Of a DNA stretch of 23,208 nt, positions 784-21,542 are shown one piece after another. How positions within the stretch are numbered: position 1 is the first letter of the stretch; each line of letters starts with the position of its first letter. The stretch covers positions 1 to 23,208 of the forward strand of contig QEUW01000072.1 of the NCBI GenBank assembly GCA_003577005.1, read 5' to 3'. The notes under the pieces are model-generated. The model worked only from the letters and a program-made list of their open reading frames with translations. It did not search any database and was not told where the DNA came from. The DNA is from Chloroflexota bacterium (GTDB taxonomy: Bacteria; Chloroflexota; Anaerolineae; Caldilineales; Caldilineaceae). The translations under genes were made by a program, and so were the position numbers.

Positions 784-3063
784 ATGGTGACAATCGAGTC
801 CACACCGGAAATGGCCGCACAGGTCTATGCGACGATGGAGCGCAATCTCGCGGTTGTCCGCCGCCGGCTGGGGCGACCGTTGACCCTGGCCGACAAGGTC
901 TTGCTGGGCCATTTAGATGACCCAGAACACCAGGAGATGGAAGCGGGCAAGAGCTATCTCTTTGTCCGCCCCGATCGCGTGGTGCTGCAGGATGTGTTGG
1001 GCCAGACCGGTATGCTCCAGTTTATGCAGACACGGCGCAAGCGCGTCGCCGTGCCCACGACGATCCACTGTGACCATTTGATTCAGGCCAGAGTGGAAGG
1101 CCAGGCAGACTTGCGCGCCTCGCTTGCCGAAAACAGCGAGGTCTATGACTTCCTGCGGTCTGCTGCTGCTCGTTATGGCGCCGGCTTTTGGGAACCGGGC
1201 GCCGGGATCATCCATCAGGTGGTGTTGGAGAACTACGCCTTCCCCGGCGAGTTGATCATCGGCACCGACTCGCATACCCCCAACGCTGGCGGTCTGGGTG
1301 CGTGTGCGGTGGGCGTCGGCGGGGCAGACGCCGTCGAGGTGATGGCCGGGCTGCCCTGGGAGGTGCTCTATCCCCGGCACATTGCCGTCTACCTCACCGG
1401 CAAGCTAAACGGGTGGACCGCACCCAAAGATGTGATCCTCTACGTGGCGGGCCAGTTGACCGTGGCCGGGGGCACCAACGCGATTGTGGAATACATCGGC
1501 CCCGGCGCCCGCACCATCAGCGCCACGGGCAAGGCCACGATCACCAACATGGGCGCCGAACTGGGCGCCACCACCTCCATGTTCCCCTACGACGAACGCA
1601 TGGCCGTCTATCTGCGGGCGACCGGGCGCGGCGATCTGGCGCCCCTGGCCGAACAGTACGCGCATCTGCTGGCGCCGGATGAGGAAGTGGAAGCCCACCC
1701 GGAAAAGTACTATGACCGCGTGGTCGAGCTTGACCTCTCCACGCTGGAGCCGTACATCGTCGGGCCGCACTCGCCGGACCGGGCGCGCCCCATCTCCTGG
1801 CTTGCGGCTGAGGTAGCCAATCCGGCCAATGGCTTCCTCGACGAGATCTCGACTGCCCTGATCGGCAGTTGCACCAACTCCTCTTATGAGGATATGAGCC
1901 GTGCCGCCGATATCGCCCAACAGGCCCAGGCCCATGGCCTCAAAGCCGCCGCGCCCTTTTTGGTCACACCCGGGTCGGAGCAGGTACGCGCCACCATCGA
2001 GCGCGACGGCCAGATGCAGGCGCTCACCGCCATCGATGGGGTTGTGTTGGCCAACGCCTGTGGCCCGTGTATCGGCCAGTGGCAGCGGGCCAGGGATGTC
2101 GCCACCAAGCCCAACACCATCGTGACCTCGTACAACCGCAACTTCCCCATGCGCAACGACGGCCAGCCGACCACGATGAACTTTATCGGCAGCCCGGAAC
2201 TGGTCACCGCGATGGCCCTGGCCGGCCGCCTCTCCTTCAACCCGCTGACCGACACCCTCACCGGCGCCGATGGCCAGCCCTTCCGCTTGGAACCACCCAA
2301 ACCGGCGCCAGAAGTGCCGGCGCAACCCTTCGCCCGCGGTCGCAAGGTCTACGTGGCCCCGCCGGAGGATGGCAGCGACATCGTCCTCAAGGTGGATCCG
2401 CAGAGCGAGCGGCTGCAAGTGATGGAACCGTGGCCGGCCTGGGACGGTCAGGATTTTCTCGATCTGCCTGTGCTGCTCAAGGCCAAGGGCAAGACGACCA
2501 CCGACCACATCTCGCCCGCCGGACCGTGGCTGCGCTACCGGGGCCATCTCGACAAGTTTAGCGACAACACGTTTATGGGTGCAACCAATGCCTATACCGG
2601 CGAGATCGGCAAGGGCAAGAATGTGCTGACCGGAGCAACCGGACAGTCCTTTGCCACCACGGCCCGGCACTACCGCTCGCAGGGGATCAAGTGGGTGGTT
2701 ATCGGGGATCATAACTATGGCGAGGGCAGCAGCCGCGAACACGCCGCCCTCTGTCCGCGCTTGCTGGCCGGCGCGGCGGTCATCGCCCGCAGCTTTGCGC
2801 GCATCCACGAGTCGAACTTGAAGAAGCAGGGCTTGCTGGCCCTTACCTTCCAGGACCCGGCAGACTATGAGCGCATCCGTGAGGATGACCGTATCAGCCT
2901 GGTCGGGCTGGCGGAGATGGCGCCCGGCAAAGCGGTGACTTGCCTCGTCCGCCATGCCGATGGGACGGTCGAGACACTCCAGCTCAACCACTCGTACAGC
3001 GAGTCACAACTGGCGTGGTTCCGCGCCGGCTCGGCGTTGAATCTGGTCTCGTCCATGAGCTGA
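784..3063 (+). CDS. acn: Aconitate hydratase, mitochondrial (ACO2) type
   Basis: The 759-residue product would interconvert citrate and isocitrate through cis-aconitate in the TCA cycle, in the cytoplasm. Length and sequence match the mitochondrial-type aconitases rather than the approximately 900-residue AcnA or AcnB types; the segment TTIHCDHLIQA near residue 95 is typical. The three [4Fe-4S] cysteines are visible: C363 in GSCTNSS, and C426 and C429 in ANACGPCIG, with the family spacing. The swivel domain carries GDHNYGEGSSRE (641-652), including the catalytic serine region and substrate-binding arginine. The start is supported by GAGGAG 8 bases upstream. The gene stands alone; no other TCA gene adjoins it. 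A 2-methylisocitrate or homoaconitate role is less likely given the close ACO2-type motifs. Confidence 0.96.
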   Translation: MVTIESTPEMAAQVYATMERNLAVVRRRLGRPLTLADKVLLGHLDDPEHQEMEAGKSYLFVRPDRVVLQDVLGQTGMLQFMQTRRKRVAVPTTIHCDHLIQARVEGQADLRASLAENSEVYDFLRSAAARYGAGFWEPGAGIIHQVVLENYAFPGELIIGTDSHTPNAGGLGACAVGVGGADAVEVMAGLPWEVLYPRHIAVYLTGKLNGWTAPKDVILYVAGQLTVAGGTNAIVEYIGPGARTISATGKATITNMGAELGATTSMFPYDERMAVYLRATGRGDLAPLAEQYAHLLAPDEEVEAHPEKYYDRVVELDLSTLEPYIVGPHSPDRARPISWLAAEVANPANGFLDEISTALIGSCTNSSYEDMSRAADIAQQAQAHGLKAAAPFLVTPGSEQVRATIERDGQMQALTAIDGVVLANACGPCIGQWQRARDVATKPNTIVTSYNRNFPMRNDGQPTTMNFIGSPELVTAMALAGRLSFNPLTDTLTGADGQPFRLEPPKPAPEVPAQPFARGRKVYVAPPEDGSDIVLKVDPQSERLQVMEPWPAWDGQDFLDLPVLLKAKGKTTTDHISPAGPWLRYRGHLDKFSDNTFMGATNAYTGEIGKGKNVLTGATGQSFATTARHYRSQGIKWVVIGDHNYGEGSSREHAALCPRLLAGAAVIARSFARIHESNLKKQGLLALTFQDPADYERIREDDRISLVGLAEMAPGKAVTCLVRHADGTVETLQLNHSYSESQLAWFRAGSALNLVSSMS

Positions 3064-3224: not shown

Positions 3225-4439
3225 TCAATCTCCGGCGTGGACCAGCGCGGCGTCTTCCAGAGCGTGAAAGTGCTGGTAGACCATGCGCCCTACTTGTAAG
3301 GCGATGGGCGCCAGCGAAAGAACGTAGAACAGATACGCGGCCCCGTGCAGGTTGCTGCGCAGCGGCACAACGAAGATGCTTGCCCAGACCAGCGCACTGC
3401 CCACGTTGACGGCAAAGAGGCTGAACCAGTTGCCACCCAGGCCAGCCTTGCTCTTGTGAAGCAAATAACGCTCGACCAGGAAAGGGATTAGGACATAGCC
3501 AAATTGCAACACCCAGCCGTAGATCAACGCCTGTGGCGCCGTCGCCTCAATGTCGCCACCCACAAAGCCAGGGACATTCAAAAGGATGAATGGCGCAGTG
3601 AAGACAGGCAACAGGATCCACACATAAGCAGTCACCAGATGCCAGGCGCCCGCGGTGCGCAACTGCCCGGCGCGCGCCAGCCCGCGCACCAATAGCCCCA
3701 ACAGCCAGACGGTAGCCACAATGTGGAGCACCAATCCGGGGACGGTGACCCAGAGCGCGCCACCGAGCCACGGGCCGATGACCAGGCCGAGCGCGCCCAA
3801 TGTCATGCTCCAGAAGATGGTGTTGATCGTGCGCGCCGAGGCTAACGACTGGCCGCTCAGCAGCGGGATGATGTCGATGATCAGCCCGGCAAAGACCAAC
3901 GAGAGAAAGCCCCAGTTGTTGGCGTGGATGTGAACCTCCAACGGCACTTGAATGCGCAGCGGGCCGCTCCAGCCCAGCCACAGCCCCGTGCCTACAATGA
4001 TACCGAGCAAGAGGTAGAGCAGGCCAGTCACATAGAATTTGACACTCTGGCCCAGCGGCTGTGCCTCTCCACTGCGCATCCCCCACAGCTGCCCGGCGAG
4101 CAGCGCGGCGGCGATGAAGATCAATGTCCCACCGGTGAAGATCAGAATTGGGTTCATGCTGGGAATGCCGCCCAGCAGCACGATCAACCCTACATTGAGG
4201 GAAAGCCAGATATCCCAGCGCATGGCAGGGCGGGGTAATTTGCGCCGGGCCGCCACCAGCGCCGGTAACGCGCCAAAGATCACCTGGGTCACCATGCCCA
4301 GCGTGATAAAGTGGACACGCAACCAGCGTACCCCGTTGAACCAGGGCAACAGCTCGAAGCTGATCAGCGAAGCATCGAGCGCCGCCAGCACCGCCACGAA
4401 CAGATAAAGCAACATCATCAGAAAATAGGGGATCAGCAT
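3225..4439 (-). CDS. Multi-pass membrane protein A, heme-copper-oxidase-like (paralogue of the protein at 4873-6111)
   Basis: The 404-residue protein is almost entirely hydrophobic, with about 11-12 predicted helices. It shares a full-length pattern with the protein encoded at 4873-6111: WLR-x-H (H43) in helix 2, H-x-HAN..GF (H170, H172) in the middle, a single H267 in a following helix, LIYGW-x-LQ near 305-312 and WFSL near 338. Histidines fixed in helices this way are typical of heme or copper ligands in the heme-copper oxidase/NorB/NnrS-like world. However, the classical His-His pair and the late heme-ligand helix of catalytic oxidases are not evident, so I do not call an oxidase. It is the last gene of the operon, 73 bases after the cupin gene, with GGGAGG 8 bases before the ATG. 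A role in NO/O2 handling or heme/copper biology is an inference. Confidence 0.75.
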   Translation of the reverse strand: MLIPYFLMMLLYLFVAVLAALDASLISFELLPWFNGVRWLRVHFITLGMVTQVIFGALPALVAARRKLPRPAMRWDIWLSLNVGLIVLLGGIPSMNPILIFTGGTLIFIAAALLAGQLWGMRSGEAQPLGQSVKFYVTGLLYLLLGIIVGTGLWLGWSGPLRIQVPLEVHIHANNWGFLSLVFAGLIIDIIPLLSGQSLASARTINTIFWSMTLGALGLVIGPWLGGALWVTVPGLVLHIVATVWLLGLLVRGLARAGQLRTAGAWHLVTAYVWILLPVFTAPFILLNVPGFVGGDIEATAPQALIYGWVLQFGYVLIPFLVERYLLHKSKAGLGGNWFSLFAVNVGSALVWASIFVVPLRSNLHGAAYLFYVLSLAPIALQVGRMVYQHFHALEDAALVHAGD

Positions 4440-4512
4440 CAGATTGTCCTCCCGGTTTTATTCCACATTGTCAATTGTTGCGTTCAAGCCGTGTCGCTGA
4501 AGCCAGGCGCCG

Positions 4513-4839
4513 TCAGGCGGGCTTGGCGGCGAGGAAGATCACACGCGTCTCTGCCTGCATGCCGCGGCGGGCGCCGGCGGGTGTGATCACCGTGGCGCCC
4601 GGTGTGATCGGAAAGTGTTCATCATCGACCGTCATCGTGCCGATCCCGACTAAAAAATGGTATATGGCCAGTGATTCGGGGTGAACAGGAATCTGTTGCC
4701 CGGGTTCGAGGCCGCTCAAAATCACTTTGAAGTTGGCCTCATCCACCAGAAACTGCGGTTGCGGCCCCTGCTCGCCAAAAATCGTTTTTTCCTTGACGTC
4801 AGCGTAAAAGGCCACTTGTTTGCTTGTGCTTTGCGTCAT
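4513..4839 (-). CDS. Small single-domain cupin protein
   Basis: The 108-residue protein has the cupin beta-barrel pattern: FKVILSGLEPGQQIPVHPES (residues 37-56), then IYHFLVGIGTMTVDDE and a second motif ITPGATVITPAGARRGM (78-94). The metal-ligand set is incomplete. Motif 1 has H53 and E55 instead of HxH, and in motif 2 the usual histidine is replaced (R91/R92 region), so it may bind metal weakly, bind a small molecule, or be structural. I chose the ATG at 4839 over one at 4857 because AAAGGA (4849-4854) lies 9 bases before it, while the upstream ATG has no ribosome site. It lies 33 bases after gene B and 73 bases before gene A in the same operon, so its job is probably tied to those membrane proteins. 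Confidence 0.85.
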   Translation of the reverse strand: MTQSTSKQVAFYADVKEKTIFGEQGPQPQFLVDEANFKVILSGLEPGQQIPVHPESLAIYHFLVGIGTMTVDDEHFPITPGATVITPAGARRGMQAETRVIFLAAKPA

Positions 4840-4848
4840 TTTGATTTG

Positions 4849-4854
4849 TCCTTT
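4849..4854 (-). promoter_or_regulatory. Ribosome binding site that decides the cupin start
   Basis: AAAGGA read on the minus strand lies 9 bases before the ATG at 4839. A second in-frame ATG at 4857 directly abuts the upstream edge of this site and has no ribosome site of its own, so translation most likely starts at 4839. Confidence 0.6.
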
Positions 4855-4872
4855 CATCTACACTCGTATGAC

Positions 4873-6111
4873 TCAAACAGTCGTTCTTTCCGCAATTCTC
4901 CCAGCCAGTTCCGCCACCTTTGGTACCTGGAGCAGTGCGCGCACCAGCATCCGCAGATAAGGCAGCATCGCTACAATGACAAATAGATAAGCAATGCCCA
5001 CTACCGGCCCAGCCAGCGACCAAGGCAGCAACAGGCTGGAGAGCCAGATTACGGCGACCGCAGCGTTGAGCACGACCAGGCTAAACCAACTGCCTTCGCT
5101 ACGCCGGATGACCCGCTCCGGGCGTTCGGACGGCAGCCGCGTGATCATCAACGGCAACAAGGCGAGTGCCAGTTGCAGAATCCAGCCGTATATCAGCCCT
5201 TGTGTAATACCGAACTCCAGACGCGCCAGTGGTACGCGCTCTGGTCCCAGGGTCACATAGAAAACGGTGGCAACGGCCGGCGCGGCGATCCAGATGTAGC
5301 TGAGGAACACATGCGCGCCGTTGACAATGCGCACGGATGTGAGCTGATGGGTGGTGATAAAGAAGTTGGCCAGCATCAGCCCTGTGCCGGCGACATAGAC
5401 CACGAGGCTGGCGCCGGTGATGGCCAGGCTGCCCACGTAGGGACCCAGCCACAGCCCAACCCCGCCGATCACCATCAGCCACAACGTTGGCGCAACCCAG
5501 GTCGGGCGGGCCAGGTTGCGCCCAAAAAGCGGTGGCAAGCGATCCAGTATCACCCCTGCCACCACAATGCCGGTGAAGCCAAAGATATTGGCGTGTACAT
5601 GCGCTTCCTTGACGCCCACATAGTTTACCGGCGCCCACCAGTTCATGAGCATGGTGAGGGCCATGAGAACGCCCAGCAACAGAAAGAGGGGAGCCGCCAG
5701 GTAGAAACCCGCGACGACCGCTCGCGGCCGGGGTGCGCGGCGCCACATCTGCCCGAGCAGGCCGGTTTCAACCAACACCGCCAGCAGCAGAAGAGTCGCA
5801 CCGCTGTAAATCTGCCAGACTACACCGAGCACCTGGCCCACTGCCAACAGCATCAGACCCACGTTGAACAGGCCAAAAATGGTCCACAGGGCAGTGGGCT
5901 GTGGCCGTTTGAGGTTCAGACGCGTAGCCAGCAGACTGGGCAGCGTTCCCAACACGGCCTGCGCCAGGACGCCGATGGTCAACAGGTGCAGACGCAGCCA
6001 GTAGAGATTGGTCAGTCCGGGCGCGAGGCCAAACTGCAGTAATATGTGATCGAGCAGGCTGAGCACAGCCAGCAGGAGATAGAATGCTGCCATCCAATAG
6101 AAAACGGTCAT
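4873..6111 (-). CDS. Multi-pass membrane protein B, heme-copper-oxidase-like (paralogue of the protein at 3225-4439)
   Basis: The 412-residue protein has about 12 predicted helices. Its histidines match those of membrane protein A: H42 in WLR-L-H, H171 and H173 in AHVHANIFGF, and H267 in GAHVFLSYIW; LIYGWILQ and WFSL also recur. Conservation of these positions between otherwise diverged paralogues points to ligands for heme or metal. The start is well supported by GGAGG six bases upstream, and the ATG overlaps the stop of the PRC-barrel gene by 4 bases (6108-6111), implying translational coupling. Products of this type are sometimes labelled cbb3-type oxidase subunit I-like, but no subunit II, III or cytochrome c partner lies here. 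Function in the cytoplasmic membrane is unknown; gas (NO or O2) chemistry or heme handling are the best guesses. Confidence 0.75.
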   Translation of the reverse strand: MTVFYWMAAFYLLLAVLSLLDHILLQFGLAPGLTNLYWLRLHLLTIGVLAQAVLGTLPSLLATRLNLKRPQPTALWTIFGLFNVGLMLLAVGQVLGVVWQIYSGATLLLLAVLVETGLLGQMWRRAPRPRAVVAGFYLAAPLFLLLGVLMALTMLMNWWAPVNYVGVKEAHVHANIFGFTGIVVAGVILDRLPPLFGRNLARPTWVAPTLWLMVIGGVGLWLGPYVGSLAITGASLVVYVAGTGLMLANFFITTHQLTSVRIVNGAHVFLSYIWIAAPAVATVFYVTLGPERVPLARLEFGITQGLIYGWILQLALALLPLMITRLPSERPERVIRRSEGSWFSLVVLNAAVAVIWLSSLLLPWSLAGPVVGIAYLFVIVAMLPYLRMLVRALLQVPKVAELAGRIAERTTV

Positions 6112-6491
6112 GGGTTGCCTCCAACCTGTTCAGACAATGCATCAGAGCCGCGCCACACGGGCAAACTTTCCACCAGTGGATGATAGATGCGCAGCAAGAC
6201 CTCCCCATCACCCACCGCCGCGACCAGGTCGACGGGCGCCAGGCGGTACTCGGTTGTCTGTGTCAGGCGACCGAGCACCAAGTGGGTGACTTTGCCGTTC
6301 CGGCTATCGAGCACGACTGCCGCAACGTGACCTGCTGTATGCCCTTCGCTGGTCAGCACAGTCATGCCCCGACGTACTTCGGCCCGATGGCTCTCGCCGG
6401 AGCTAGTATCTGAATCAACCATTTTGTCCGTAGCTAGTGATCCGCTTTCCATCATCGTCACAGGCTGCTCATTGGTTTGTGAGCTAGACAT
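6108..6491 (-). CDS. PRC-barrel domain protein
   Basis: The 127-residue protein begins with a polar, probably disordered stretch of about 40 residues rich in Ser, Glu and Asp. A PRC-barrel fold follows from about 41 to 102 (GMTVLTSEGHTAGHVAAVVLD, then KVTHLVLGR and YRLAPVDLV), the usual beta-strand rhythm of this family. PRC-barrel proteins serve as small adaptor or binding modules, seen in photosynthetic reaction-centre subunit H, RimM and many stress proteins. It overlaps the next gene (membrane protein B) by 4 bases, so the two are probably made together, and the barrel may bind the cytoplasmic face of that protein. The ribosome site is moderate (AGGCGG). Domain assignment is good; partner assignment is inferred. 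Confidence 0.8.
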   Translation of the reverse strand: MSSSQTNEQPVTMMESGSLATDKMVDSDTSSGESHRAEVRRGMTVLTSEGHTAGHVAAVVLDSRNGKVTHLVLGRLTQTTEYRLAPVDLVAAVGDGEVLLRIYHPLVESLPVWRGSDALSEQVGGNP

Positions 6492-6520
6492 GGTCGTCCG
6501 CCTTCTGCAACCTTCTTCGC

Positions 6521-6760
6521 CTATTCATTACGCTTGGGCTGCTGCTCTTTGGTTGCAACCGCCTTACGCAAAATCTCTAAGAAATCGTCCAGTGGCACGC
6601 GGTGTATGCGGGCGGCCCATTCAACGGTCAGTGCTTTCGTCAGCAACTTGCGCAGCGAATAACGTCCAACACGCTTTACCCCAAAGAGCTCCATTACATC
6701 GGCAATCTCGCCGTATTCTTCCAGCAGATCCGAAACATAGGTATCTTTTGTAATTTCCAC
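6521..6760 (-). CDS. DUF1858 / ScdA-N-like small helical protein
   Basis: The 79-residue protein starts EITKDTYVSDLLEEY (residues 2-16), continues IADVMELFGVKRVGRYSLRK, and ends with a basic tail. This matches the DUF1858/DUF542-type domain, a small helical module often found with hemerythrin-like iron or nitric-oxide-response proteins and in the N-terminus of ScdA/RIC. The cysteine-bearing motif seen in some members is absent; the protein has no cysteine. It uses a GTG start with a very strong AGGAGGAG ribosome site, part of which overlaps the TAG stop of the preceding gene, so it is translated in tight succession with the four-helix membrane protein. The link to NO or iron stress comes from family context only. 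Confidence 0.8.
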   Translation of the reverse strand: MEITKDTYVSDLLEEYGEIADVMELFGVKRVGRYSLRKLLTKALTVEWAARIHRVPLDDFLEILRKAVATKEQQPKRNE

Positions 6761-6772
6761 GAGGTTCTCCTC

Positions 6773-7189
6773 CTATACTGTTACTTGATATTGCGTGTTG
6801 GCTAACTTTCTATAGGCCACCACGAAAATGACGAGCCAGGTAATTGTGCGCAAACCCATCGCGGCCACGGTGCGCATTTCGTAGCTGCCACCGGTCCAGA
6901 TTTGTACGCCAAAGGCAACAAAAATGATGAGGGTGGCGGCTGCAATGGCAAAAGAGAGCCACATTGCCCAGCGCTGCCAGAACCAAAGCCCAACGCCGGC
7001 AACGACATAGGCGAACCCGGCCAGAAAATTAAACCAAAGCACAAAGGGTACATAGTTGCCGGCAAGGCGCTGAACCTCGGTGTCAAAGAGGGTGCGTCCA
7101 CCGGAGATGATGGTGAGCAACCCAAAGAGGATGGCAACGATAGCCAGCGCGCTCATCCAGCGCGAACGCTTCGATTCAGGTGATGTCAT
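6773..7189 (-). CDS. Four-helix membrane protein of unknown function
   Basis: The 138-residue protein has four clear hydrophobic helices at about 11-31, 47-70, 74-95 and 107-127, with short basic or polar ends. Helix 2 and the following loop are rich in Trp and Phe (FVLWFNF, LWFWQRWAMW). No histidine or cysteine is present, so it is unlikely to bind heme itself. AGGAG lies 5-9 bases before the ATG at 7189. It is the first gene of the minus-strand operon, directly downstream of the regulator gene and the palindrome at 7220-7250. I do not recognise a named family; it may be a small membrane partner of the two large membrane proteins. Confidence 0.75.
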   Translation of the reverse strand: MTSPESKRSRWMSALAIVAILFGLLTIISGGRTLFDTEVQRLAGNYVPFVLWFNFLAGFAYVVAGVGLWFWQRWAMWLSFAIAAATLIIFVAFGVQIWTGGSYEMRTVAAMGLRTITWLVIFVVAYRKLANTQYQVTV

Positions 7190-7219
7190 TTTTTGCTCCT
7201 TGCATCAGTGGAAAATCGG

Positions 7220-7250
7220 GCAGACACTATGGTTAGACCATAGCATCTGC
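7220..7250. promoter_or_regulatory. Palindromic operator candidate before the membrane operon
   Basis: A 14-base arm (7220-7233) and its partner (7237-7250) match at 12 of 14 positions around a 3-base centre; the inner seven pairs, CTATGGT/ACCATAG, are perfect. It lies between the regulator stop and the start of the first operon gene, 31 bases upstream of that ATG. Position and symmetry fit a dimeric regulator site. It could also form an attenuator or terminator stem for the regulator transcript, but no T-run follows. Confidence 0.5.
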
Positions 7251-7287
7251 GCAGCGGGAAGTCTTCGACTTTTGTCGGCTTTGGGGT

Positions 7288-7986
7288 TTACTGACGGGTG
7301 AGGGTGGTTTTAGCCGCCAACCCCTGACGGTCCAGGATCCGGATCTGCTGGCGGTCAAGCTCGATCAGCTCTTCTTCAACCAGTGCGCGCAGGGCGCGAT
7401 TGAGGACATCGGGTACGGCGCCAAGACGGGCAGCCATTTCGGCCTGGGTGGCCCAGCGCCGCCGGTACACTACATCGTCCTCGGCTTCCTCCAACAACAG
7501 GCGGGCAAGTCGCTCTGTTACCGTGTGCAACGACAGGTCTGCCACCAGCGTGACCAGCTCGGTGAGCCGGTCTGCCATAAATTCGATCACCTGCACCGCC
7601 AGCGCCGGATTGGCCGCCAACATCCGGCGCACCGCATCGCGCTGGAGCAGCCAGATCCTCGTCTGCTCCAGCGCGATGGCCGTGGCCGGCGCGGGTCGAT
7701 CGACAAAGACGCCCATGCCGCTGAAGATCTCGCCGGGACCAAAAACTTGCAGAACCTGTTCGCGGCCTTCAGGTGACATTTTCACCACCTTGACCCACCC
7801 GGTATCTACGTAGTAGAGCGCCGGTGCGGCATCGCCCTCCAAAAAGATCACGGCGCCCGGCGCGTAGGCTCGCCAGACGGCGCTGCGTGCCATCTGCGCC
7901 AGGACCTCTGGGTCCAACCCGCGCAAAAATGAGCTGGTTTGAAGCTTTTCGACCAGTTGGTCCCGCTGAGCAGGTGTCGCTTGCAT
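7288..7986 (-). CDS. Crp/Fnr-family transcriptional regulator
   Basis: The 232-residue protein has an N-terminal cyclic-nucleotide-type beta-roll (about 20-115), a long dimerisation helix (about 120-165) and a C-terminal winged helix-turn-helix (TQAEMAARLGAVPDVLNRALRAL, with the recognition helix at 192-203). The effector pocket differs from CRP: the GEL and RSA phosphate-binding motifs are replaced by SGM and PAT, so cAMP binding is unlikely. There is no cysteine, so an Fnr-type iron-sulfur cluster is excluded; a heme- or NO-sensing DNR-like role is possible. The start at ATG 7986 is chosen because AAGGGG lies 6 bases upstream and the protein then has normal family length; an extension to 8109 adds 41 residues unlike the family. 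It probably controls the adjoining operon, and perhaps itself. Confidence 0.93.
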   Translation of the reverse strand: MQATPAQRDQLVEKLQTSSFLRGLDPEVLAQMARSAVWRAYAPGAVIFLEGDAAPALYYVDTGWVKVVKMSPEGREQVLQVFGPGEIFSGMGVFVDRPAPATAIALEQTRIWLLQRDAVRRMLAANPALAVQVIEFMADRLTELVTLVADLSLHTVTERLARLLLEEAEDDVVYRRRWATQAEMAARLGAVPDVLNRALRALVEEELIELDRQQIRILDRQGLAAKTTLTRQ

Positions 7987-8315: not shown

Positions 8316-11300
8316 ATGTACGTTCAATCGATTCTCGAAGCGCCATGCCTTGATCTGGGCCTCAAGGAGAAGGCGCTGGCGCTGCTCGTGGTGATCAGCC
8401 TGCTCTTGCAGCCGATCATCACGATGCTGCCGCCGCAAAGCCTGCCAGCGCCCAATGAGACCGTCGCCGTAGCAAACGCGACGGCCGACGTGGCTACCCC
8501 CACTGCGCCACCACCGGCGACCGCCCGGCCCATCTACCCGCTACCTGCCGAACTCGTGGGCAAGCCGGAGGTAGCCGCGCTGCGCACGGCGCACAGCGCA
8601 ACATTTGCCGTCGGCGACAACGAGTACGCTGTGCTACAGGAGCTCCAGCCTATCCATTACCAAGATGCGACGGGCGCCTGGCGGCACATCGACCCGGCCT
8701 TTGTTCGCACGCCCACCGGCTGGCAGAATACGGCCAACACGGTCCACACTGCGTTGGCCCAGCGCACCAGCCTGGCCCGCATCAGCGGCGACGGCGTCGG
8801 CGTCGAATGGCGCCCGGTCGCGCTCGAAGTGGTCCAGGCCAACGGCGGCAAAGAGACCGTGGCCCAACCCCACCTCGGTGAGTCGGCTGCACCCGGTGTT
8901 CAGCAGGCTGATGGCAACACCGTGCGCTACCCCGCCAGTTGGAGTCTGGAGGGTCTACAAGACCAGTGGCAGAGCGGTCGCGGTCAGGTCGAATACGCCA
9001 TGCGCCTGCCCAATCTCCCCCTCTCCAAACTGGAGAGGGGGGAGGGGGGTGAGGTCGAGCATCTCGACCTTCGTGTCTTGCTGCGACTCACGCCCGGCAC
9101 GACTATCGAAATCGACGGCGAACCAGTCACACTCACTCCTCACTCCTCACTCCTCACTCGTCACGCGCTCACCTTTGTCACTGGCAACGGCGCCGCCATG
9201 CTCCTGCAGCCGCCCATCACCTACGAACAGGAGGACCCTGAAAATGCGGCGGCCGGGAGCTACGTACTCAGCGCCACTGCCGATCCCAACGTGGTCGAAC
9301 TGCGCGTCCGCACGCCGTGGGATTGGCTGGCGGCGCCCGAACGCCGCTTCCCGGTGATCATCGACCCGGTCTTTCAGATGCGCTCGGGCACCTTTAGTTT
9401 GACACCGGTCTACAAAGATTTCTTTGAGACTTTTGTCGATTACTCAAGCAAGCCTGGCTTCGGCCAGTTCAAGCAGGGTGTCAAGCGCTACTTGGTCAAG
9501 TTCGATATACCCAAACAGCCGCCGGGCACAACCGTCACCAAGGCTCACTTTGTGGTGACACCCACAGGACAAAACGCCGGTTCGTTTGGTGCCTTCCCGG
9601 TCGCATGGCTGGGTACGATGTTTGGCAATGTGCAGATGCTCAATGTGCGCGGCTTTGCGCTGGATAACGACAATTGGCAGATGAGTTCTAACAAGCAGCA
9701 CATCCTAAATGCCGCACCGCTGGCGCCCGCCGAACGGTTGGTATTCTACACCAACGGCAATCCCAAACAGCCGCTCAGCGCCGTCTGGGATGTCACCGAC
9801 CTCGCCAGCCAGTGGCTGACGCCGGGGCAGAACCACGGTCTGATGGTAGCGACCCAGCGCGAGTTCTGCTATCAAGACCTCAACTTTGTCGAGGCCTACA
9901 TCTGGCCCTGTGGCGGCTTTGACCTGGACAACACGCGCGCCTGGCGTGACGAAGAACTGGCCGAGATCGAGGCCAACAGTACGCCCGACGAAAATCACCA
10001 CGTCGTCAGCGAAAGCGGCGGTGTGCGGCTCATCGCCTATTACACCGGCCCGACGCTCAACAAGGACCAGGTCATCACCACCGACAACCTCTTTCTCAAT
10101 AACTTTGGCCTGCCCAGCAGCGAACCAGCCTACTACCACACTGATCAGGAATATAGGCTGGCGGCGCTGCCGATGAATAATTGGTATGCAGTGGCGACGC
10201 GCGGCTTTGGCGATCCCTTTGGCCCCAATCCGCCCACGCTTGACGAACCCAGCGGGCGCAACCTGCGCGGCTCGGTCGATTTTGAGATCTACGTCAACAA
10301 CGGCAAACCAACGCGCCAGCCGGGCAAGACCGGCAACGTCAACCATTATGTCATCGACGGGCGCAATGTCAACACCGACGGCTTCCGCGCCCTGGTCAAG
10401 CCGCAGACGGGCGAAAACCTGCCCAGTGGCTATGATATCCGCCTCATCGGCGAGCGCGAGAGCCTGGCCGTCCCTCTAGGGGGATCGGTGGAGCGCAACG
10501 TCTGGTTCTCCAGCCTCGAGCCGCTGCACCTCTACAATGTCGCGCTGCCGCCGGGCAGCAACAGCCGCGTCGATGTCCGCATCGTGGCGACCAACGCCGA
10601 GGACACCACGCAGAACTTTACGCTCTACCAGAACGCGGATGACTTCTTTGCCGAACTGACCGGCGCCAACACCCAGGTGGCCGTGCAGACGATCGCCAAC
10701 CGCGGGCTGGTCGGTATCCCCGTCGGCGGTGTCCAGTTGACCAGCGGGATCGTCAGCGTGCCCGGCGGCAACTATGCGCTTGCCCTGGGCTACACAGGGC
10801 CGGAAGTGCTGTTCGACAAGATTGAGATTCCGTCGTTGCAGGCTGCCTCGGCGGGGGGCGAACCGCTCGTCGTCCAATATCATTACAATCTGCGCATCAC
10901 CGCCTGTGGGCCGGGCGAATACCCCACCAGCACAGGCGGCTGCCAGCGCGTCGAGTGCCCCACCAGCGCCTTTGCCGCAGCGAACCGGCGTGACAACCTG
11001 GCCGGTCTCCAGGTCTGGAGCGCCGCTGGGTGGAGCGCCGCCGGCAACCCGGCCACCACCAATCTGGCGAATATCGCCCCGCTCATCGGCGGGGCCGGCA
11101 ATATCTCGCCCCATGTGGCGGTCATTGAAGGCACGGTCAGCATCAACGGCAACGACATCCGCGTCGATAGGCCCGATCCCAACAACCTGGTCGCGCCGAC
11201 GGTGATCCTGGTCGACTGCGGCCAGTTCAACAACCCGCCGGCCACGCCCGCCGACTCGTTCACGGCATACACCGGCCCCATGCGGCGTGAGTTCGCCGGC

Positions 11301-14300
11301 CAGCCGCCTGTTGCAATGGCCGCGCTCATTCCTGGCGGTGTGGGGGCGCGCGGGCTCAACCCCTGGTACAGCGACGACCTCAACGCTGGCGATGTGAGCC
11401 AGCACGAATACCGCGTGCTGCCGGCAGCGGGTTCCATCGAGGGCAAGGCGCAGTTGCGTCGGCTCGTCCCCGCCGATCTGCGCTTCGACGTGACCTACAG
11501 CGGCAACATCGGCGGCTACAGTTCGCTCAACGGGGAGATCGTCGCGGCGGGCAATCTGGCGACGCTCGACATTGCCAGCCTGGCCCTGGCGCTTGGCAAC
11601 GACTTCAGTCTGGACTGGCGCACCTATCCCGTGTTGGAGGACAAATACTCGGCGCGCTACTTTGGTGCCGTGCGGGCGGCCAAAGCGACCGTAACTCAGC
11701 ACGCCAGCCTGGGCGGCGCCAGCAAACCGGTCCAGGCGCTGCTGTTACCGCGTGGGGTCAAACTGCCCAGCGAACCACAGAAGAGTTGCGCCGGCAGTTG
11801 TGTCGATGTGCGCGCCCCGTCGGACACCCCCACCGCGCCCAACCGCAAGTGGGCCATGCCCGATGTCCACACCGATGTCCAGGCGGGTATGATGGCAATG
11901 AATGCCGCCGGCAGCACCATCGTCTACAGCACCGACCACCCGCAGGTAAATGCGACGGGCATGAATGCGCCCAACATTAGCCAGAGCTTTAGCTTTGACG
12001 CCTTCAACGCCACGGTGAGCGTCGAGGAGGATTACTGCGCCACCGACGCCAACGGCAACCCCAGCGGCCCCAAGGTGTTGGTGATCCGCGGCGAGACGCG
12101 GCTGGCGCTGCCCAACATCGGCTCGGCGGGCGACCCCAACGCCGGCATCAGCGCCAAGTTCAAACTGTGCCAGACCTCGCTGCGCAGCGTCCACCTGAGC
12201 TTCCAGTCGCCTGTGGGCGTGCCCATCGGCAGCAGCGGTCTCTTCCTGACCGGGCTAAGCGGCAGCGTGGACATTTTCCCCGAACACACCACCATCCGTA
12301 TCGGGTTGGACTTCCAGGCCGCACCGGGCGGCAACGGCGGCATCTTCAAGGCGCACGGCGAGGTGGTGATCGACACACGCGGTCTCTTTGCCTTCCAGGG
12401 CGACGCCAAGATCCTGGGTGTGGTCAACGCCGACGGCAAGCTCTGGGTAGCGTGGAACCCCATGGACATCGGCTTCGAGGTCAATGTGCGGCTGGGAAGC
12501 TGGCTCAAAGGCTTTGCCCGCGCCCACATGTGGCAGGGCCGCGGCTTCAACAACTATACCTGGCTGCCCGACAACGACGAGATGCACTTCACCGCCGCGC
12601 TGGGCGCTACCATCACCATCGAAGAGGACGCCATCTTCTGGGGCGTGCCGTGGGACGACATCAGCTTTGGCGTCGAACTGGCCTTTGGCGAGTTCTGCAC
12701 CAACAGCAGTTGCACCCGCTACGAGTTTGGCGTCAAGGGCAAGTTCGAGATCGCCGGCTTCGACGTGGGTCTTTACTACGGCTTTGACGAAGGGCTGGAC
12801 TTCATCCTGGGCAATGACAACCACGTGCTCATCGACCAGCACAACGGCGCCAAGAGTTCGCCCGTCTTTGCCGCCGGAGAAATGGCTGACCTCTCTGACC
12901 CGGTCACGGTCCAGGGCGCGCCGGCCACCATCAACGGGGTGGCGACCATCACCTTTACCGTCTCAACGCAAGCCGAGGAGATACTGGTTGGCATCGGCTG
13001 GCAGGCAGGGACGCCGAGCCTCAGCCTGGTGCGACCCGACGGCGTGGAGATCACCACCGCCAACGCCAACCAACACGGCGCCCAGACCGAGGTGCATAGC
13101 CAGACGATGATCTTTGGCGTGGAAGGCCCCATGGCGGGCGTCTGGCAGGCGCGCATCAGCAACCTGAGCGATGAAGGGATCGAGCACTATCGCTTCTTCC
13201 ACTTTGCCAGCAAGGGCGCGCCAGGGACGCCGGGCAACCGCGGCGCTTTTGTCAACCCGCTGGGGCAGAACGAGCCGGGGACAAATAGCTACACCATCAA
13301 CTGGCAGGCGCCGCCCGACACGCCCGCTACGGCCACGGTGAGCCTCTACTATGCGCGCACCGATGTGATCACCGGCAACTTGCAGATCGGCATGCCGATC
13401 GTCAAGAACCTGCCCTTTGTGACCGGAAGCTACGAGTGGAACACCAGCAAGCTGCTCAATGGCAGCTACCGCGTGACCGCCGTGGTGGACGACGGTATCA
13501 ACGAGCTGCCCACCGGCAAGGTGAGCGTACCCGACGACGCCTGTCTCCCCATGGAGTACGGCGTGCCGCGGCTGCGAGCCTTTGACCCCAACCGCTTCCC
13601 CGGCACCGAGGTCTTTACCGCGACCGGCACGATCCAGATCAACGACGTGCTGCCGCCGGCAACCCCTACCGGGCTGACCGTCGTGCCCGGTGACGGTGCG
13701 CTGCTCGCCAAATGGAATCCATCGCCCGAGCCGGATGTGAACGCCTATCTGATCCGCTGGGGCCAGTTACGGCCCGATGTGCCGGTGGGCTTCCTGGTGC
13801 AGAACCAGGCGCTGGTGGCGGCGTCTGAGTTACCGCAGTATCGCATCGGCGCGCTCAAGACTGGTCTGGGCTACGGGGTGGACATAGCTGCGCTCGACAT
13901 CAACGGCAACGCCAGTCCCTTCAGCGAGGCGGTCAAGGCAGTCAACGACAGCACGGCCAGTGTCATCCCCCTGGCGCCGGAGAACTTTGCCCTTGCCGGG
14001 CGCACCTCCGATAGCGCTAGCTTCAGTTGGATGCCCGCCGCGGGTCCCTCGGCGGCGAGCTTCCGGCTCACCTACGTCAAGCTGGGGGCCGGCCATGAAG
14101 TAGGTGTGTTCGACGTGACCGGCACAGCGGCGACGATCCCAAATTTGGAGACCGGCGCGGTCTATCAGGTCATGGCCAATGCGGCCAACGCCGACGGCTG
14201 GCGTAGCGCCAACAGCGACCCCATCCGTGTGCTGGTCACCAACGGGGTGGATGCCAACGGCGACGGCATGGCCGATGACTGGGCCGCAGCCCACGACGTG

Positions 14301-14843
14301 ACCAACGCCAACGCCGACGATGATAACGATGGCTTGACCAATGGGCAGGAATATGCCCAGGGCAGCAACCCCCGCCGGCAAGACAGCGACGGCGACGGCC
14401 TGAGCGACTTCGAGGAGCAGGCCGCCGGCACCGACCCGGCCAATGCGCTGGAATACGGCGGCGAGGTGCTCCAACCTCGTCTACTGTTGGAGCACGACCG
14501 GCTCACCTTCAAGCCCAAGCTGCAACCGGGCGGCGAGGCGCCGGCGCAGTCGATCAAGTGGCTCAACGCCGGTGGCGGGACGCTCAACCTGCAAGCCAGC
14601 ACCGACGCGCCGTGGATCACCGCCAGCGTCGTCAGTGACACCGTGCAGGTGGCGCTCAGCCAGGGCAACCTGACGCCCGGCTTCCAGTCGGGCATCGTGC
14701 GGCTGGCGGCGGCGGAGGGCAGCGGGCCGATCATTGGCGGCGCGGCGTGTATTCGGGTCAACGCCTGGGTGGCCCAGGCGGACAACGACACGACGCCGCT
14801 CTTTGACCGGCACATGTTCCTGCCGCTGGTGAGCAATGAGTGA
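8316..14843 (+). CDS. Giant secreted modular surface protein (DNRLRE-type, FN3-like, Ca-binding repeats, BACON-like)
   Basis: The product has 2175 residues. A hydrophobic segment at about 20-38 followed by a Pro/Thr/Ala-rich stretch marks it as exported. Residues about 90-350 resemble the N-terminal part of secreted DNRLRE proteins (IHYQDATGAWRHIDPAF; RRFPVIIDPVF). A DNRLRE-like domain spans about 355-540, with YLVKFDIP and WDVTDLASQWL. From about 540 to 1500 the chain is beta-rich and unrecognised, with several cysteine pairs. Two FN3-like domains follow (about 1780-1873 and 1885-1980), then acidic calcium-binding repeats (DANGDGMADDW, DDDNDGLTNGQEY, DSDGDGLSDFEE; about 1977-2046), a BACON-like domain (about 2054-2152) and a C-terminal FLPLVSNE. 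Likely a wall-, sheath- or matrix-associated adhesin or scaffold; no catalytic motif is seen. It starts at ATG 8316 (AAGGGG 9 bases before). It precedes the polysaccharide operon but is separated from it by a terminator and 501 bases. Confidence 0.88.
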   Translation: MYVQSILEAPCLDLGLKEKALALLVVISLLLQPIITMLPPQSLPAPNETVAVANATADVATPTAPPPATARPIYPLPAELVGKPEVAALRTAHSATFAVGDNEYAVLQELQPIHYQDATGAWRHIDPAFVRTPTGWQNTANTVHTALAQRTSLARISGDGVGVEWRPVALEVVQANGGKETVAQPHLGESAAPGVQQADGNTVRYPASWSLEGLQDQWQSGRGQVEYAMRLPNLPLSKLERGEGGEVEHLDLRVLLRLTPGTTIEIDGEPVTLTPHSSLLTRHALTFVTGNGAAMLLQPPITYEQEDPENAAAGSYVLSATADPNVVELRVRTPWDWLAAPERRFPVIIDPVFQMRSGTFSLTPVYKDFFETFVDYSSKPGFGQFKQGVKRYLVKFDIPKQPPGTTVTKAHFVVTPTGQNAGSFGAFPVAWLGTMFGNVQMLNVRGFALDNDNWQMSSNKQHILNAAPLAPAERLVFYTNGNPKQPLSAVWDVTDLASQWLTPGQNHGLMVATQREFCYQDLNFVEAYIWPCGGFDLDNTRAWRDEELAEIEANSTPDENHHVVSESGGVRLIAYYTGPTLNKDQVITTDNLFLNNFGLPSSEPAYYHTDQEYRLAALPMNNWYAVATRGFGDPFGPNPPTLDEPSGRNLRGSVDFEIYVNNGKPTRQPGKTGNVNHYVIDGRNVNTDGFRALVKPQTGENLPSGYDIRLIGERESLAVPLGGSVERNVWFSSLEPLHLYNVALPPGSNSRVDVRIVATNAEDTTQNFTLYQNADDFFAELTGANTQVAVQTIANRGLVGIPVGGVQLTSGIVSVPGGNYALALGYTGPEVLFDKIEIPSLQAASAGGEPLVVQYHYNLRITACGPGEYPTSTGGCQRVECPTSAFAAANRRDNLAGLQVWSAAGWSAAGNPATTNLANIAPLIGGAGNISPHVAVIEGTVSINGNDIRVDRPDPNNLVAPTVILVDCGQFNNPPATPADSFTAYTGPMRREFAGQPPVAMAALIPGGVGARGLNPWYSDDLNAGDVSQHEYRVLPAAGSIEGKAQLRRLVPADLRFDVTYSGNIGGYSSLNGEIVAAGNLATLDIASLALALGNDFSLDWRTYPVLEDKYSARYFGAVRAAKATVTQHASLGGASKPVQALLLPRGVKLPSEPQKSCAGSCVDVRAPSDTPTAPNRKWAMPDVHTDVQAGMMAMNAAGSTIVYSTDHPQVNATGMNAPNISQSFSFDAFNATVSVEEDYCATDANGNPSGPKVLVIRGETRLALPNIGSAGDPNAGISAKFKLCQTSLRSVHLSFQSPVGVPIGSSGLFLTGLSGSVDIFPEHTTIRIGLDFQAAPGGNGGIFKAHGEVVIDTRGLFAFQGDAKILGVVNADGKLWVAWNPMDIGFEVNVRLGSWLKGFARAHMWQGRGFNNYTWLPDNDEMHFTAALGATITIEEDAIFWGVPWDDISFGVELAFGEFCTNSSCTRYEFGVKGKFEIAGFDVGLYYGFDEGLDFILGNDNHVLIDQHNGAKSSPVFAAGEMADLSDPVTVQGAPATINGVATITFTVSTQAEEILVGIGWQAGTPSLSLVRPDGVEITTANANQHGAQTEVHSQTMIFGVEGPMAGVWQARISNLSDEGIEHYRFFHFASKGAPGTPGNRGAFVNPLGQNEPGTNSYTINWQAPPDTPATATVSLYYARTDVITGNLQIGMPIVKNLPFVTGSYEWNTSKLLNGSYRVTAVVDDGINELPTGKVSVPDDACLPMEYGVPRLRAFDPNRFPGTEVFTATGTIQINDVLPPATPTGLTVVPGDGALLAKWNPSPEPDVNAYLIRWGQLRPDVPVGFLVQNQALVAASELPQYRIGALKTGLGYGVDIAALDINGNASPFSEAVKAVNDSTASVIPLAPENFALAGRTSDSASFSWMPAAGPSAASFRLTYVKLGAGHEVGVFDVTGTAATIPNLETGAVYQVMANAANADGWRSANSDPIRVLVTNGVDANGDGMADDWAAAHDVTNANADDDNDGLTNGQEYAQGSNPRRQDSDGDGLSDFEEQAAGTDPANALEYGGEVLQPRLLLEHDRLTFKPKLQPGGEAPAQSIKWLNAGGGTLNLQASTDAPWITASVVSDTVQVALSQGNLTPGFQSGIVRLAAAEGSGPIIGGAACIRVNAWVAQADNDTTPLFDRHMFLPLVSNE
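9017..9041. repeat. Palindromic GC-rich repeat element inserted in frame
   Basis: Perfect 11-base arms (CCCCCTCTCCA and TGGAGAGGGGG) around a 3-base loop are followed by a GGAGGGGGGTGAGG tail to 9054. It lies within the large protein gene and is translated as the polar stretch LPLSKLERGEGGEV, unlike its neighbours. The type resembles short dispersed repeats usually seen between genes, so an insertion that kept the frame is likely. Confidence 0.6.
9130..9164 (+). repeat. Heptanucleotide tandem repeat inside the large secreted protein gene
   Basis: Three exact copies of TCCTCAC (9137-9157) are followed by one variant TCGTCAC (9158-9164) and preceded by a weaker copy, CACTCAC (9130-9136). It is read as LTPHSSLLTRH. 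Because seven is not a multiple of three, gain or loss of one unit would shift the reading frame of the remaining roughly 1900 codons. Confidence 0.8.
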
Positions 14844-15344: not shown

Positions 15345-16910
15345 ATGAAGAATTCTATGGTACAGGTTGCTCAGGAACACAGGATAGCATCTAGCAGAAG
15401 CGCCGCTCGACGATATACGGAATGGTCGATCCTGTTGGCAGTTGTAGTTGGGATGGCTGCACTCGTCTTTTACCTGCGCTGGTGGCTGAACAGCGGGTTC
15501 CTCACATCGCCTGTGTTGCTGCTTGTCTTTGTCTCTGCCCTGGCCTACAGCAGCTTCCAACTGGTCGGGAACTGGTCGCTCTTTTTGGCCGCTTCCTTCC
15601 GACCACTGAGAAAGATCTATCCAGCGCATTGTTTCACCGTCGATGTCTTTGTTACGGTGTGCGGCGAAGACCATGCCTTGATCCGCAAATGTCTGGCTGC
15701 CACCTGCGCCATGCGTGGTGAACACAAGGTCTGGCTTCTGGATGATGGCCCCGACCCAATGTTGGAGCAACTGGCACAGGAACTTGGCGCTGGCTATCTT
15801 ATCAGAGGGAACCGCAACGATGCCAAGGCTGGTAATCTCAATGCGGCGCTCGCTCGTACAAATGGCGATATCATTGCCATTTTCGATGTCGATCATGTGC
15901 CAGCGCCAGACTATCTGGAGCGGACGGTACATCACTTTTCCGACCCTGGCGTAGGCTTTGTCCAGGTCATAGTGACCTTTGGCAACAGCCAGGACGGTTG
16001 GGTGGCGCAGGCCGCAGCCGAAAGTTCGCTGGATTTCTACAACCCCACCTCAAAGGGAATGGACGCACTGGACAGCGTCACCATGATGGGGAGCAATTCG
16101 CTCATCCGGCGCACGGCGCTCACCTCCATCGGCAATTACCAACCGGGGCTGGCCGAAGATCTGGCCACCTCGCTCGCCCTGCACGCAGCGGGCTGGCGCT
16201 CGGTCTATGTGGCAGAACCGCTGGCGCCGGGGATCGCCCCGCCTGACCTGGCAAGCTGGTTTACACAGCAATTCAAGTGGGCGCGAGGTGTCTTTTCCGT
16301 CTTGTTGAGCGACTTCCCGCGAGTCTGGTCACAACTGAGTTGGGGCGAACGCATTGCCTACGGGGTGCGTATGACTATGTACTGGCTGGGGCCGGTCATC
16401 TGCGCCCATTTGCTGGCAACAGTGGCTGTGCTGTTCTGGGGCAGCCAAGAGGTGATGGAGGGCTATGGGCAATACCTCCTGACTCTCATGCCGCTGGCCG
16501 CAAGCAATGTCCTGATCCACTGGCTGGCGTTGCAACGATGGCGTCACCCCTCGCTGCCAGCGCCCACATGGAAAGCGGTGATGCTGGTCTATGCCACCTG
16601 GCCGATCTATACCTTGGCCTGGCTGATGGCGTTGTTGCGGATCCCACTGGCCTTTCGCCCAACGCCCAAGACGCCAAGTAGCCGTCTCAACCTTTGGTGG
16701 CTAACACCACAGACACTGATAACCGCGCTCCTACTGGCTGGCACTCTTTATCGCTTTTCATCTGATGGCTTCTCCAGCACCCTGGTGTTGCTGGCCGCAC
16801 TGATGCTTGTCTTCCCCCATCTCTTGTTTTTTGCGCATTGCTGTGGGTCGCAAGATATGCGGTCTCTACCGGATCTACAAGGAGTGGCGCAAGTCGGGGC
16901 GACCCAATGA
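15345..16910 (+). CDS. Membrane glycosyltransferase family 2, cellulose-synthase-like
   Basis: The 521-residue protein has two N-terminal helices (about 27-46 and 53-72), a cytoplasmic GT-A domain and about five C-terminal helices from 345 on, the layout of processive GT2 synthases. Catalytic features are present: DDG (133-135), DVD (181-183) binding metal and nucleotide-sugar, AED (270-272) with the likely base D272, and QQFKWARG (308-315) in the place of the Q-x-x-R-W motif. There is no PilZ domain, so it is not a standard BcsA. It is the first gene of the polysaccharide operon and overlaps the next gene by 4 bases. It may polymerise a glycan at the inner membrane or start the chain; the sugar is unknown. 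The ribosome site is weak (AGGGA close to ATG). Confidence 0.92.
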   Translation: MKNSMVQVAQEHRIASSRSAARRYTEWSILLAVVVGMAALVFYLRWWLNSGFLTSPVLLLVFVSALAYSSFQLVGNWSLFLAASFRPLRKIYPAHCFTVDVFVTVCGEDHALIRKCLAATCAMRGEHKVWLLDDGPDPMLEQLAQELGAGYLIRGNRNDAKAGNLNAALARTNGDIIAIFDVDHVPAPDYLERTVHHFSDPGVGFVQVIVTFGNSQDGWVAQAAAESSLDFYNPTSKGMDALDSVTMMGSNSLIRRTALTSIGNYQPGLAEDLATSLALHAAGWRSVYVAEPLAPGIAPPDLASWFTQQFKWARGVFSVLLSDFPRVWSQLSWGERIAYGVRMTMYWLGPVICAHLLATVAVLFWGSQEVMEGYGQYLLTLMPLAASNVLIHWLALQRWRHPSLPAPTWKAVMLVYATWPIYTLAWLMALLRIPLAFRPTPKTPSSRLNLWWLTPQTLITALLLAGTLYRFSSDGFSSTLVLLAALMLVFPHLLFFAHCCGSQDMRSLPDLQGVAQVGATQ

Positions 16911-18037: not shown

Positions 18038-18039
18038 CC

Positions 18040-18915: not shown

Positions 18916-18918
18916 ATC

Positions 18919-21529: not shown

Positions 21530-21542
21530 AAGAGTCAGCAAC

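Follow-up and report, generated by a model that had tools for sequence, protein, structure and literature searches.

The window, a 23,208-nucleotide stretch of DNA from a Caldilineaceae bacterium of the phylum Chloroflexota (contig QEUW01000072.1), carries on its minus strand a Crp/Fnr-family regulator gene followed by genes for a four-helix membrane protein, a DUF1858 protein, a PRC-barrel protein, membrane protein B, a small cupin, and membrane protein A. Proteins A and B and their relatives make up a family with 12 transmembrane helices (TM), referred to here as heme-copper-oxidase-like (HCO-L). The genes, a predicted oxidase fold, a recurring gene order, an operator-like motif, and co-occurrence with genes of nitrogen oxide (N-oxide) respiration were all established computationally, and we lean slightly towards a role akin to that of NnrS, with the locus serving N-oxide respiration as an accessory module and HCO-L handling nitric oxide (NO). 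Core genes with a conserved control site in an N-oxide setting suggest an undescribed way of coping with NO. Some Chloroflexi reduce nitrite or N2O, and their handling of NO is little known; one account describes Chloroflexi as highly abundant in wastewater bioreactors (PMC9942424).

Proteins A (3225..4439, of the widespread type) and B (4873..6111) share 32% identity across 393 aligned residues, in agreement with an earlier note on this DNA that had called them paralogous. Structure prediction placed both, with high confidence, in a 12-helix heme-copper oxidase subunit I fold, with cbb3 oxidase and cNOR as the closest solved structures, consistent with the label of heme-copper-like proteins given in that note. 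By sequence, B matches COX1 (PF00115) with 19.3 bits, under the cut-off of 34.8, and a PDB sequence search with B as query gave chance-level matches only; A has no Pfam family above cut-off and no COX1 match at E ≤ 1, and its nearest named homologues are mostly from Caldilineaceae metagenome-assembled genomes (MAGs), which makes a relative of Caldilinea the probable source. In an alignment of B, A, and 72 relatives, residues H42 (TM2) and E169, H171, H173, N175, and G178 (TM6, motif ExHxHxN) are invariant in all 74 sequences, with H267 (TM9) nearly so, and the same residues are conserved in an A-centred alignment of 58 sequences. Oxidases carry the CuB His pair in TM7 and the HxH heme ligands in TM10. 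Neither TM7 (B residues 203-226) nor TM10 (B residues 295-325) of HCO-L holds an invariant or nearly invariant His, so that the helix VII CuB pair and the helix X HxH are both missing, and the HxH of HCO-L is instead placed in TM6, within a repeat whose profile match to COX repeat 3 has E=2.2e-7. As modeled, therefore, HCO-L is a heme-copper oxidase fold without the known oxidase active site. The heme/metal part of the module proposed in the earlier note is not supported as written: with the canonical oxidase ligands absent, binding of heme and/or copper by HCO-L is an inference.

All open reading frames (ORFs) of the set were found where the earlier note had placed its six minus-strand genes and their regulator, with gaps along the six-gene run of 12, 29, -4, 33, and 73 bases (the 33-base gap counted from the cupin start at 4839), and Pfam scores above cut-off upheld its labels for the four soluble proteins. 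The regulator (7288..7986, 232 residues) matches PF00027 (1.2e-23) and PF13545 (6.7e-12), as scored on a longer ORF reaching 8109; its start was set at 7986 because related regulators have approximately 225-232 residues. Most regulators near HCO-L genes are 48-58% identical to it, with 88% in L005, a Caldilineaceae MAG contig. The window regulator has no Cys and thus no FNR-type 4Fe-4S cluster, and the regulator cluster averages 0.6 Cys over 38 proteins, one of which has 3. The four-helix protein (6773..7189, 138 residues) matches no Pfam family but is recovered, at E=1.2e-7, by a hidden Markov model of a family, sTM4, built from related loci (L005 orthologue, 1.3e-6; next best, 0.067). The stand-alone DUF1858 protein (6521..6760, 79 residues; PF08984, 7.2e-12) has no Cys and scores 22.9 bits against a cut-off of 44.95 with TIGR03980, the prismane-associated redox disulfide domain; lacking Cys, it is not of the redox-disulfide type. 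It is 67-75% identical to its counterparts in L057-L060 and 99% to that of L005. The cupin (4513..4839, 108 residues; PF07883, 1.8e-7) has conserved H53 and H61, found in all and in 86% of the 29 cupin cluster members, respectively. The PRC-barrel protein (6108..6491, 127 residues; PF05239, 2.2e-4) barely passes, with 21.6 bits against 21.2.

The core of this gene set recurs across Chloroflexota loci more often than chance would allow. Among 49 flanked sequences, 45 contain the HCO-L cluster (the window, 38 other Chloroflexota loci, and six haloarchaeal loci); the other four are L060, L063, and L064, taken for DUF1858, and L080, holding a weak match from genome G122. In the 38 other Chloroflexota loci, the neighbors up to six genes from HCO-L include the regulator in 26, the cupin in 25, sTM4 in 12, cytochrome c and DUF1858 in 11 each, b561 in eight, NosL, NosY (an ABC-2 permease), and the four-helix cluster c13 in six each, an NnrS-like protein in five, HCO25 in four, NosD and PRC-barrel in two each, and DUF2249 in one, all of these being lower bounds because several contigs are short. 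Neighbors were named by similarity or by eye, with one member each of b561, NosL, NosY, NosD, and the regulator-linked nirS confirmed by Pfam, and the cytochrome c cluster mixes cytochromes of nos clusters with longer ones beside b561. The fuller gene order in relatives is CRP-cupin-(b561-cytochrome c)-HCO-L-DUF1858-sTM4. The earlier note had made conservation of the set in related genomes the test of its module, and the core passes in this sense, although the full six genes are confined to the window and the closely related L005, whose B gene is shortened and whose A gene runs off the contig. Likewise, the picture of two membrane paralogues with small adaptors fits the window, whereas most relatives have a single HCO-L-type membrane gene per locus and the PRC-barrel gene falls outside the core. 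Near HCO-L it was seen beyond the window in L005 and L054 only, and by its distribution it appears to be a lineage-specific addition. The PRC-barrel and four-helix proteins of L005 are 94% and 86% identical to those of the window; its B gene (5381-5848) is a 155-residue frame matching only the first and one late part of B, by internal deletion or an assembly fault.

Several of these loci lie in an N-oxide setting, as the earlier note had surmised. The nirS gene sits between regulator and cupin in L071 (Cytochrom_D1, 1.6e-124) and L075, the CRP-cupin-HCO-L unit adjoins nos genes in L046, L047, L048, and L052, and B-type genes stand beside cytochrome c, nosL, and nosY in L003 and L004. In a phylum sample of 400 genomes (HCO-L, detected with B at E ≤ 1e-10, in 16; nirS in 10; nosZ in 27; nirK above cut-off in 51), at least one of nirS, nirK, and nosZ was present in 14 of 16 genomes with HCO-L versus 63 of 384 without (p=3e-9). 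Taken singly, nirS was found in 5/16 versus 5/384 (p=1.2e-5) and nirK in 9/16 versus 42/384 (p=2.6e-5); all of these are one-sided Fisher tests on counts that take no account of kinship or genome completeness, which lessens their weight for the proposed role. Within the order of G404 (46 genomes), nosZ occurs in 11 of 13 genomes with HCO-L versus 6 of 33 without (p=5e-5, likewise uncorrected for kinship and completeness). For comparison, a survey of nirS in Chloroflexi describes, for two loci treated in its text, no other denitrification genes within 20 kb (PMC8756737).

The second line of evidence is the control site. A palindrome, CCCGACAAAAGTCGGG, found at the same position in several loci, gave the motif YGAC(A/T)4GTCR, and in the window the candidate operator CGACAAAAGTCG lies at 7266..7277 on the minus strand, its center 82.5 bases upstream of the four-helix gene start. 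This conserved site follows the regulator and precedes the four-helix gene, which is therefore probably the first gene of the operon; promoter and terminator scans gave fewer sites than in shuffled sequence. In the 49 sequences, the motif has 38 intergenic matches and one coding match (115 kb versus 584 kb), and 29 of the 39 Chloroflexota loci (the window among them) have it in intergenic DNA no more than six genes from HCO-L. Most sites read CCGACAAAAGTCG, with an A-rich, oriented spacer: of 34 cases classed, 32 have the A-rich side on the strand that encodes HCO-L and two have the opposite orientation. In the window alone, the looser CGACN4GTCG has one match versus 0.38 expected, which is not significant. 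The motif is consistent with the earlier note's claim of a regulated gene set and, together with the defined gene set, makes for a directly testable regulon.

Since the motif was derived from these same HCO-L loci, its behavior elsewhere matters. Scanning 12 genomes with YGACAAAAGTCR returned 64 sites versus 28 for a reversed control. All four sites in G001 and G113 lie at HCO-L loci (control, 4 and 0), as does one of four in G006, likewise an assembly with one main contig, in which a second site (L164) precedes paired cupin and b561 genes that follow a regulator gene of broken appearance; the survey of individual sites covers these two of the four in G006 and a minority of the TGAC-type sites of fragmented genomes. 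A site lies approximately 117 bases upstream of nosZ in both L167 and L168, with nosZ identity checked in each, and another upstream of the gene preceding nosD in L174. In L163, one site separates a pair of sTM4 genes from a divergent regulator and two others are present; in L166, a site precedes a gene row with an sTM4 pair. In L172 (3314-5720), a regulator, a flavodoxin-like gene, a 73-residue gene, DUF1858, and DUF2249 follow one another, with the site upstream of the 73-residue gene. No N-oxide gene was recognised near the sites in L165, L177, L178, L179, L181, and L182.

Several observations weigh against a role in N-oxide respiration. In three of the five genomes holding both nirS and HCO-L (G019, G056, and G065; L169-L171), nirS is found away from the module; in the phylum sample, nosZ by itself shows no enrichment (3/16 with HCO-L versus 24/384 without, p=0.085); and two of the 16 HCO-L genomes, G122 and G161, have no nir or nos gene, although the G122 match is doubtful, its protein falling outside the HCO-L cluster. 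The motif is absent from 10 of 39 Chloroflexota loci (L003, L004, L051, L056-L059, L065, L069, and L078) and from all six haloarchaeal loci, it lies between nirS and cupin in L071 and L075 instead of preceding nirS, and no operator match was found in the nosZ region of G001 (L173). A nos gene is near HCO-L in only one of the six haloarchaeal loci, and A and B have no match to NnrS (PF05940) at E ≤ 1.

The haloarchaeal relatives also bear on a very improbable reading, namely that this is a general low-oxygen or redox operon with incidental N-oxide ties. None of the six haloarchaeal HCO-L loci has a core partner nearby (nosD occurs in one, L008), so that these relatives lack the module and mostly lack nir or nos genes. 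Of four haloarchaeal plasmid regions, one, L184, has nos genes; it matches L008 in species and gene order and also carries cytochrome bd genes. The haloarchaeal plasmids gave weak support at most. Incidental ties are hard to reconcile with nirS inside the gene run, adjoining nos genes, a motif upstream of nosZ in two genomes, and the enrichment at p=3e-9.

The adjoining nos genes raise a different and rather unlikely explanation, that HCO-L and its partners serve to assemble NirS or NosZ or to deliver their cofactors. This would account for the CRP-cupin-HCO-L units beside nos genes, for the B-type genes adjoining cytochrome c, nosL, and nosY, and for a haloarchaeal plasmid locus (L186) with a multicopper oxidase and an azurin-type copper protein. 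However, 24 of the 27 nosZ genomes of the phylum sample lack HCO-L, which is therefore not required for making NosZ in general, and conserved His residues in membrane helices of a predicted oxidase fold do not favor such a role.

That HCO-L is itself an enzyme, for instance an NO reductase of non-canonical type drawing on the b561 and cytochrome c encoded in its gene run, is unlikely in our estimation but has several points in its favor. The b561 and cytochrome c genes occur in 8 and 11 of the 38 loci, and the order CRP-cupin-b561-cytC-HCO-L is found in L068 and L071 and, with two extra genes preceding HCO-L, in L073. Moreover, H171-x3-N175 of TM6 is invariant, and for the corresponding active-site residue PMC8756737 (Table A4) lists Tyr in the case of oxygen reductases and Asn in that of sNOR and CuANor. 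The ten COX1 proteins of five HCO-L genomes from the order of G404 (G404, G435, G436, G438, and G441) all keep the active-site Tyr, and thus no NO reductase of the superfamily was seen in those five genomes, which are in many pieces. On the other hand, HCO-L has no conserved His in TM7 or TM10, the helices that hold CuB and heme in oxidases and in the known NO reductases, and the window operon has no cytochrome gene. The COX1 search covered 15 of 37 HCO-L genomes, all 15 of which have COX1 above cut-off, and 30 of the 31 matches were retrieved (a G001 match of 132.9 bits was left out): 23 have the active-site Tyr, five Gln, one (L127, G001) was unclassified, having neither Tyr nor Gln, and one (L121, G403) was unread. 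Gln at this place is given as a mark of eNOR (PMC8756737). The Gln-type proteins (HPAQQ), eNOR-type subunits I, are from G006, G019, G065, G081, and G113 (L128-L132), genomes that also carry HCO-L and that include four of the five with both nirS and HCO-L (G006, G019, G065, and G113). The idea that HCO-L is simply the missing NO reductase of nirS genomes is therefore weakened. The exact CGACAAAAGTCG is absent from these eNOR loci.

As an accessory module, the locus would most likely work as follows. The Crp/Fnr-family regulator would bind YGAC(A/T)4GTCR and turn on the operon when NO or nitrite is present, with NO as the presumed signal. DNR is a heme-based regulator, and by analogy the window regulator, being without Cys, is perhaps heme-based too. 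HCO-L, as an NnrS-like membrane heme and/or copper protein, would bind or buffer NO released by NirS or NirK and so protect the cell, and the cupin, DUF1858, and four-helix proteins would be small partners or sensors. Where b561 and cytochrome c are part of the run, they could conceivably supply electrons to HCO-L.

Among known systems, we would place HCO-L as a divergent branch of the oxidase fold within an NnrS-like N-oxide accessory operon. Like NnrS, which is described as recurrent in N-oxide-responsive regulons (PMC1274295), HCO-L is a membrane protein of approximately 400 residues with His motifs, and its TM6 HxHANxxGF resembles HAHEMLFGF of NnrS. In contrast, the similar motifs are offset by one four-helix repeat, and the NnrS signature RxARGHTG was not seen in the HCO-L alignment by eye. 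With cbb3 and cNOR subunit I (PF00115), HCO-L has the predicted 12-TM fold in common but not the conserved TM7 and TM10 His, and B falls under the PF00115 cut-off while A is unmatched. The DNR, NnrR, and HcpR regulons, as set out in PMC1274295, likewise have a Crp/Fnr-family regulator beside N-oxide genes and a palindrome with a four-base spacer; the DNR operators given there resemble TTGATnnnnATCAA, and one HcpR group has TTGACnnnnGTCAA, which comes nearest to the HCO-L operator and has the GAC/GTC core in common with it. The predicted operator, YGAC(A/T)4GTCR, is thus not the DNR-type TTGATnnnnATCAA, and the HCO-L sites differ from those regulons in mostly reading CCGACAAAAGTCG with an A-rich oriented spacer and in phylum and targets. 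In Thermus, the drpAB genes for DUF1858 and DUF2249 proteins are linked to nitrate respiration and its regulation in the account of PMC6282519, where DrpB is a fusion of DUF1858 with a pair of DUF2249 domains; the DUF1858 of the window is a separate protein, accompanied by cupin and HCO-L. A DUF1858 gene also appears at -29.2 in a table for an nnrR mutant (PMC6710368). The earlier note's statement that it knew no named system with this set agrees with the open-licence PMC papers searched, in which no name was found for the HCO-L module, and nothing joining NnrS with the oxidase superfamily, heme-copper oxidase with circular permutation, or NnrS with heme-copper, nitric oxide, and Chloroflexi.

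HCO-L may substitute for NnrS. Among 25 HCO-L members including A and B, nine match NnrS and five match COX1 at E ≤ 0.01, partly in a register shifted by four helices, although part of the NnrS matches are unshifted. Two findings suggest such a replacement: the HCO-L genes of G066 and G407 themselves exceed the NnrS cut-off (36.3 and 28.3 bits versus 28), and a separate NnrS match above cut-off is present in just 3 of 37 HCO-L genomes (G001, 335 bits; G066, 43; G210, 38). An assignment of HCO-L as plain NnrS was not adopted, as A and B miss the NnrS model and the profile matches are local and shifted.

Profile comparison of single four-helix repeats, with borders drawn by eye and each E-value a single comparison, matched HCO-L repeat 2 (TM5-8) to COX repeat 3 (the value given above), to COX repeat 1 (2.6e-6), and, by hhalign, to NnrS repeat 1 (E=1.7e-5, probability 79); matches to repeat 2 of COX and NnrS were weaker (1.6e-3 and 0.17). 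HCO-L repeats 1 and 3 gave nothing convincing against COX repeats (best, 0.006). COX repeats 1 and 3 are themselves alike (7e-8), so that pseudo-symmetry by itself predicts a match to either one, and the repeat 2 match shows the kind of repeat and not a permutation. NnrS repeat 1 matches COX repeat 1 only weakly (0.051), and the comparison thus fixes no register shared by HCO-L, NnrS, and COX1. One tentative possibility is that, within the heme-copper oxidase superfamily, HCO-L forms a branch of its own with a shifted register, which handles or converts NO in a site unlike those of known NO reductases. Such a branch would retain three four-helix repeats but have the HxH heme-type repeat in the middle, TM6 pairing with the TM2 His, whereas oxidases have it at the end (TM10 with TM2), an arrangement that a circular permutation or a swap of repeats could produce. 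The same gene neighborhoods do contain separate four-helix proteins that match one repeat. Circular permutation is unproven, as the registers of COX repeats 3 and 1 are indistinguishable for HCO-L repeat 2. If true, a heme-copper fold with His in another repeat would bear on the origin of the superfamily from repeats.

Cluster c13 comprises 11 stand-alone four-helix proteins of 117-139 residues in six loci, paired in five of them (L047, 4493-5333; L048, 3664-4504; L052, 11716-12541; L067, 4173-4976; L068, 4179-4982; L070, 12788-13186). Seven of the 11 match HCO-L TM1-4 at E ≤ 9e-6 (best, 4.4e-9), three fall at 0.006 to 0.24 against HCO-L, and one has no listing at E ≤ 0.5; one outside the seven matches COX1 at 9e-4, under cut-off. 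A 350-residue NnrS-like protein adjoins c13 proteins. A second four-helix type carries a GHVHGN motif resembling HCO-L TM6, with weak profile scores of 0.003 to 0.11 (L057, 8209-8631; L058, 6505-6927; L073, 7391-7819).

In L005, a second operator-like site, CGACAAAAGTCA, lies at 2192, upstream of a gene, FtsH-like by eye, that is found between regulator and operon in this locus only. Elsewhere in the window, a mitochondrial-type aconitase gene (784-3063; TIGR01340, above cut-off) is convergent with gene A, with an inverted repeat between the two noted by eye. On the other side lies a gene for a protein of approximately 2175 residues with fibronectin-like and Asp-rich repeats by eye (8316-14843), followed at 15345-23197 by glycosyltransferases, an ABC-2 type exporter pair, and a pyruvyl-transferase-like gene, likewise assigned by eye, which probably form a surface polysaccharide cluster.

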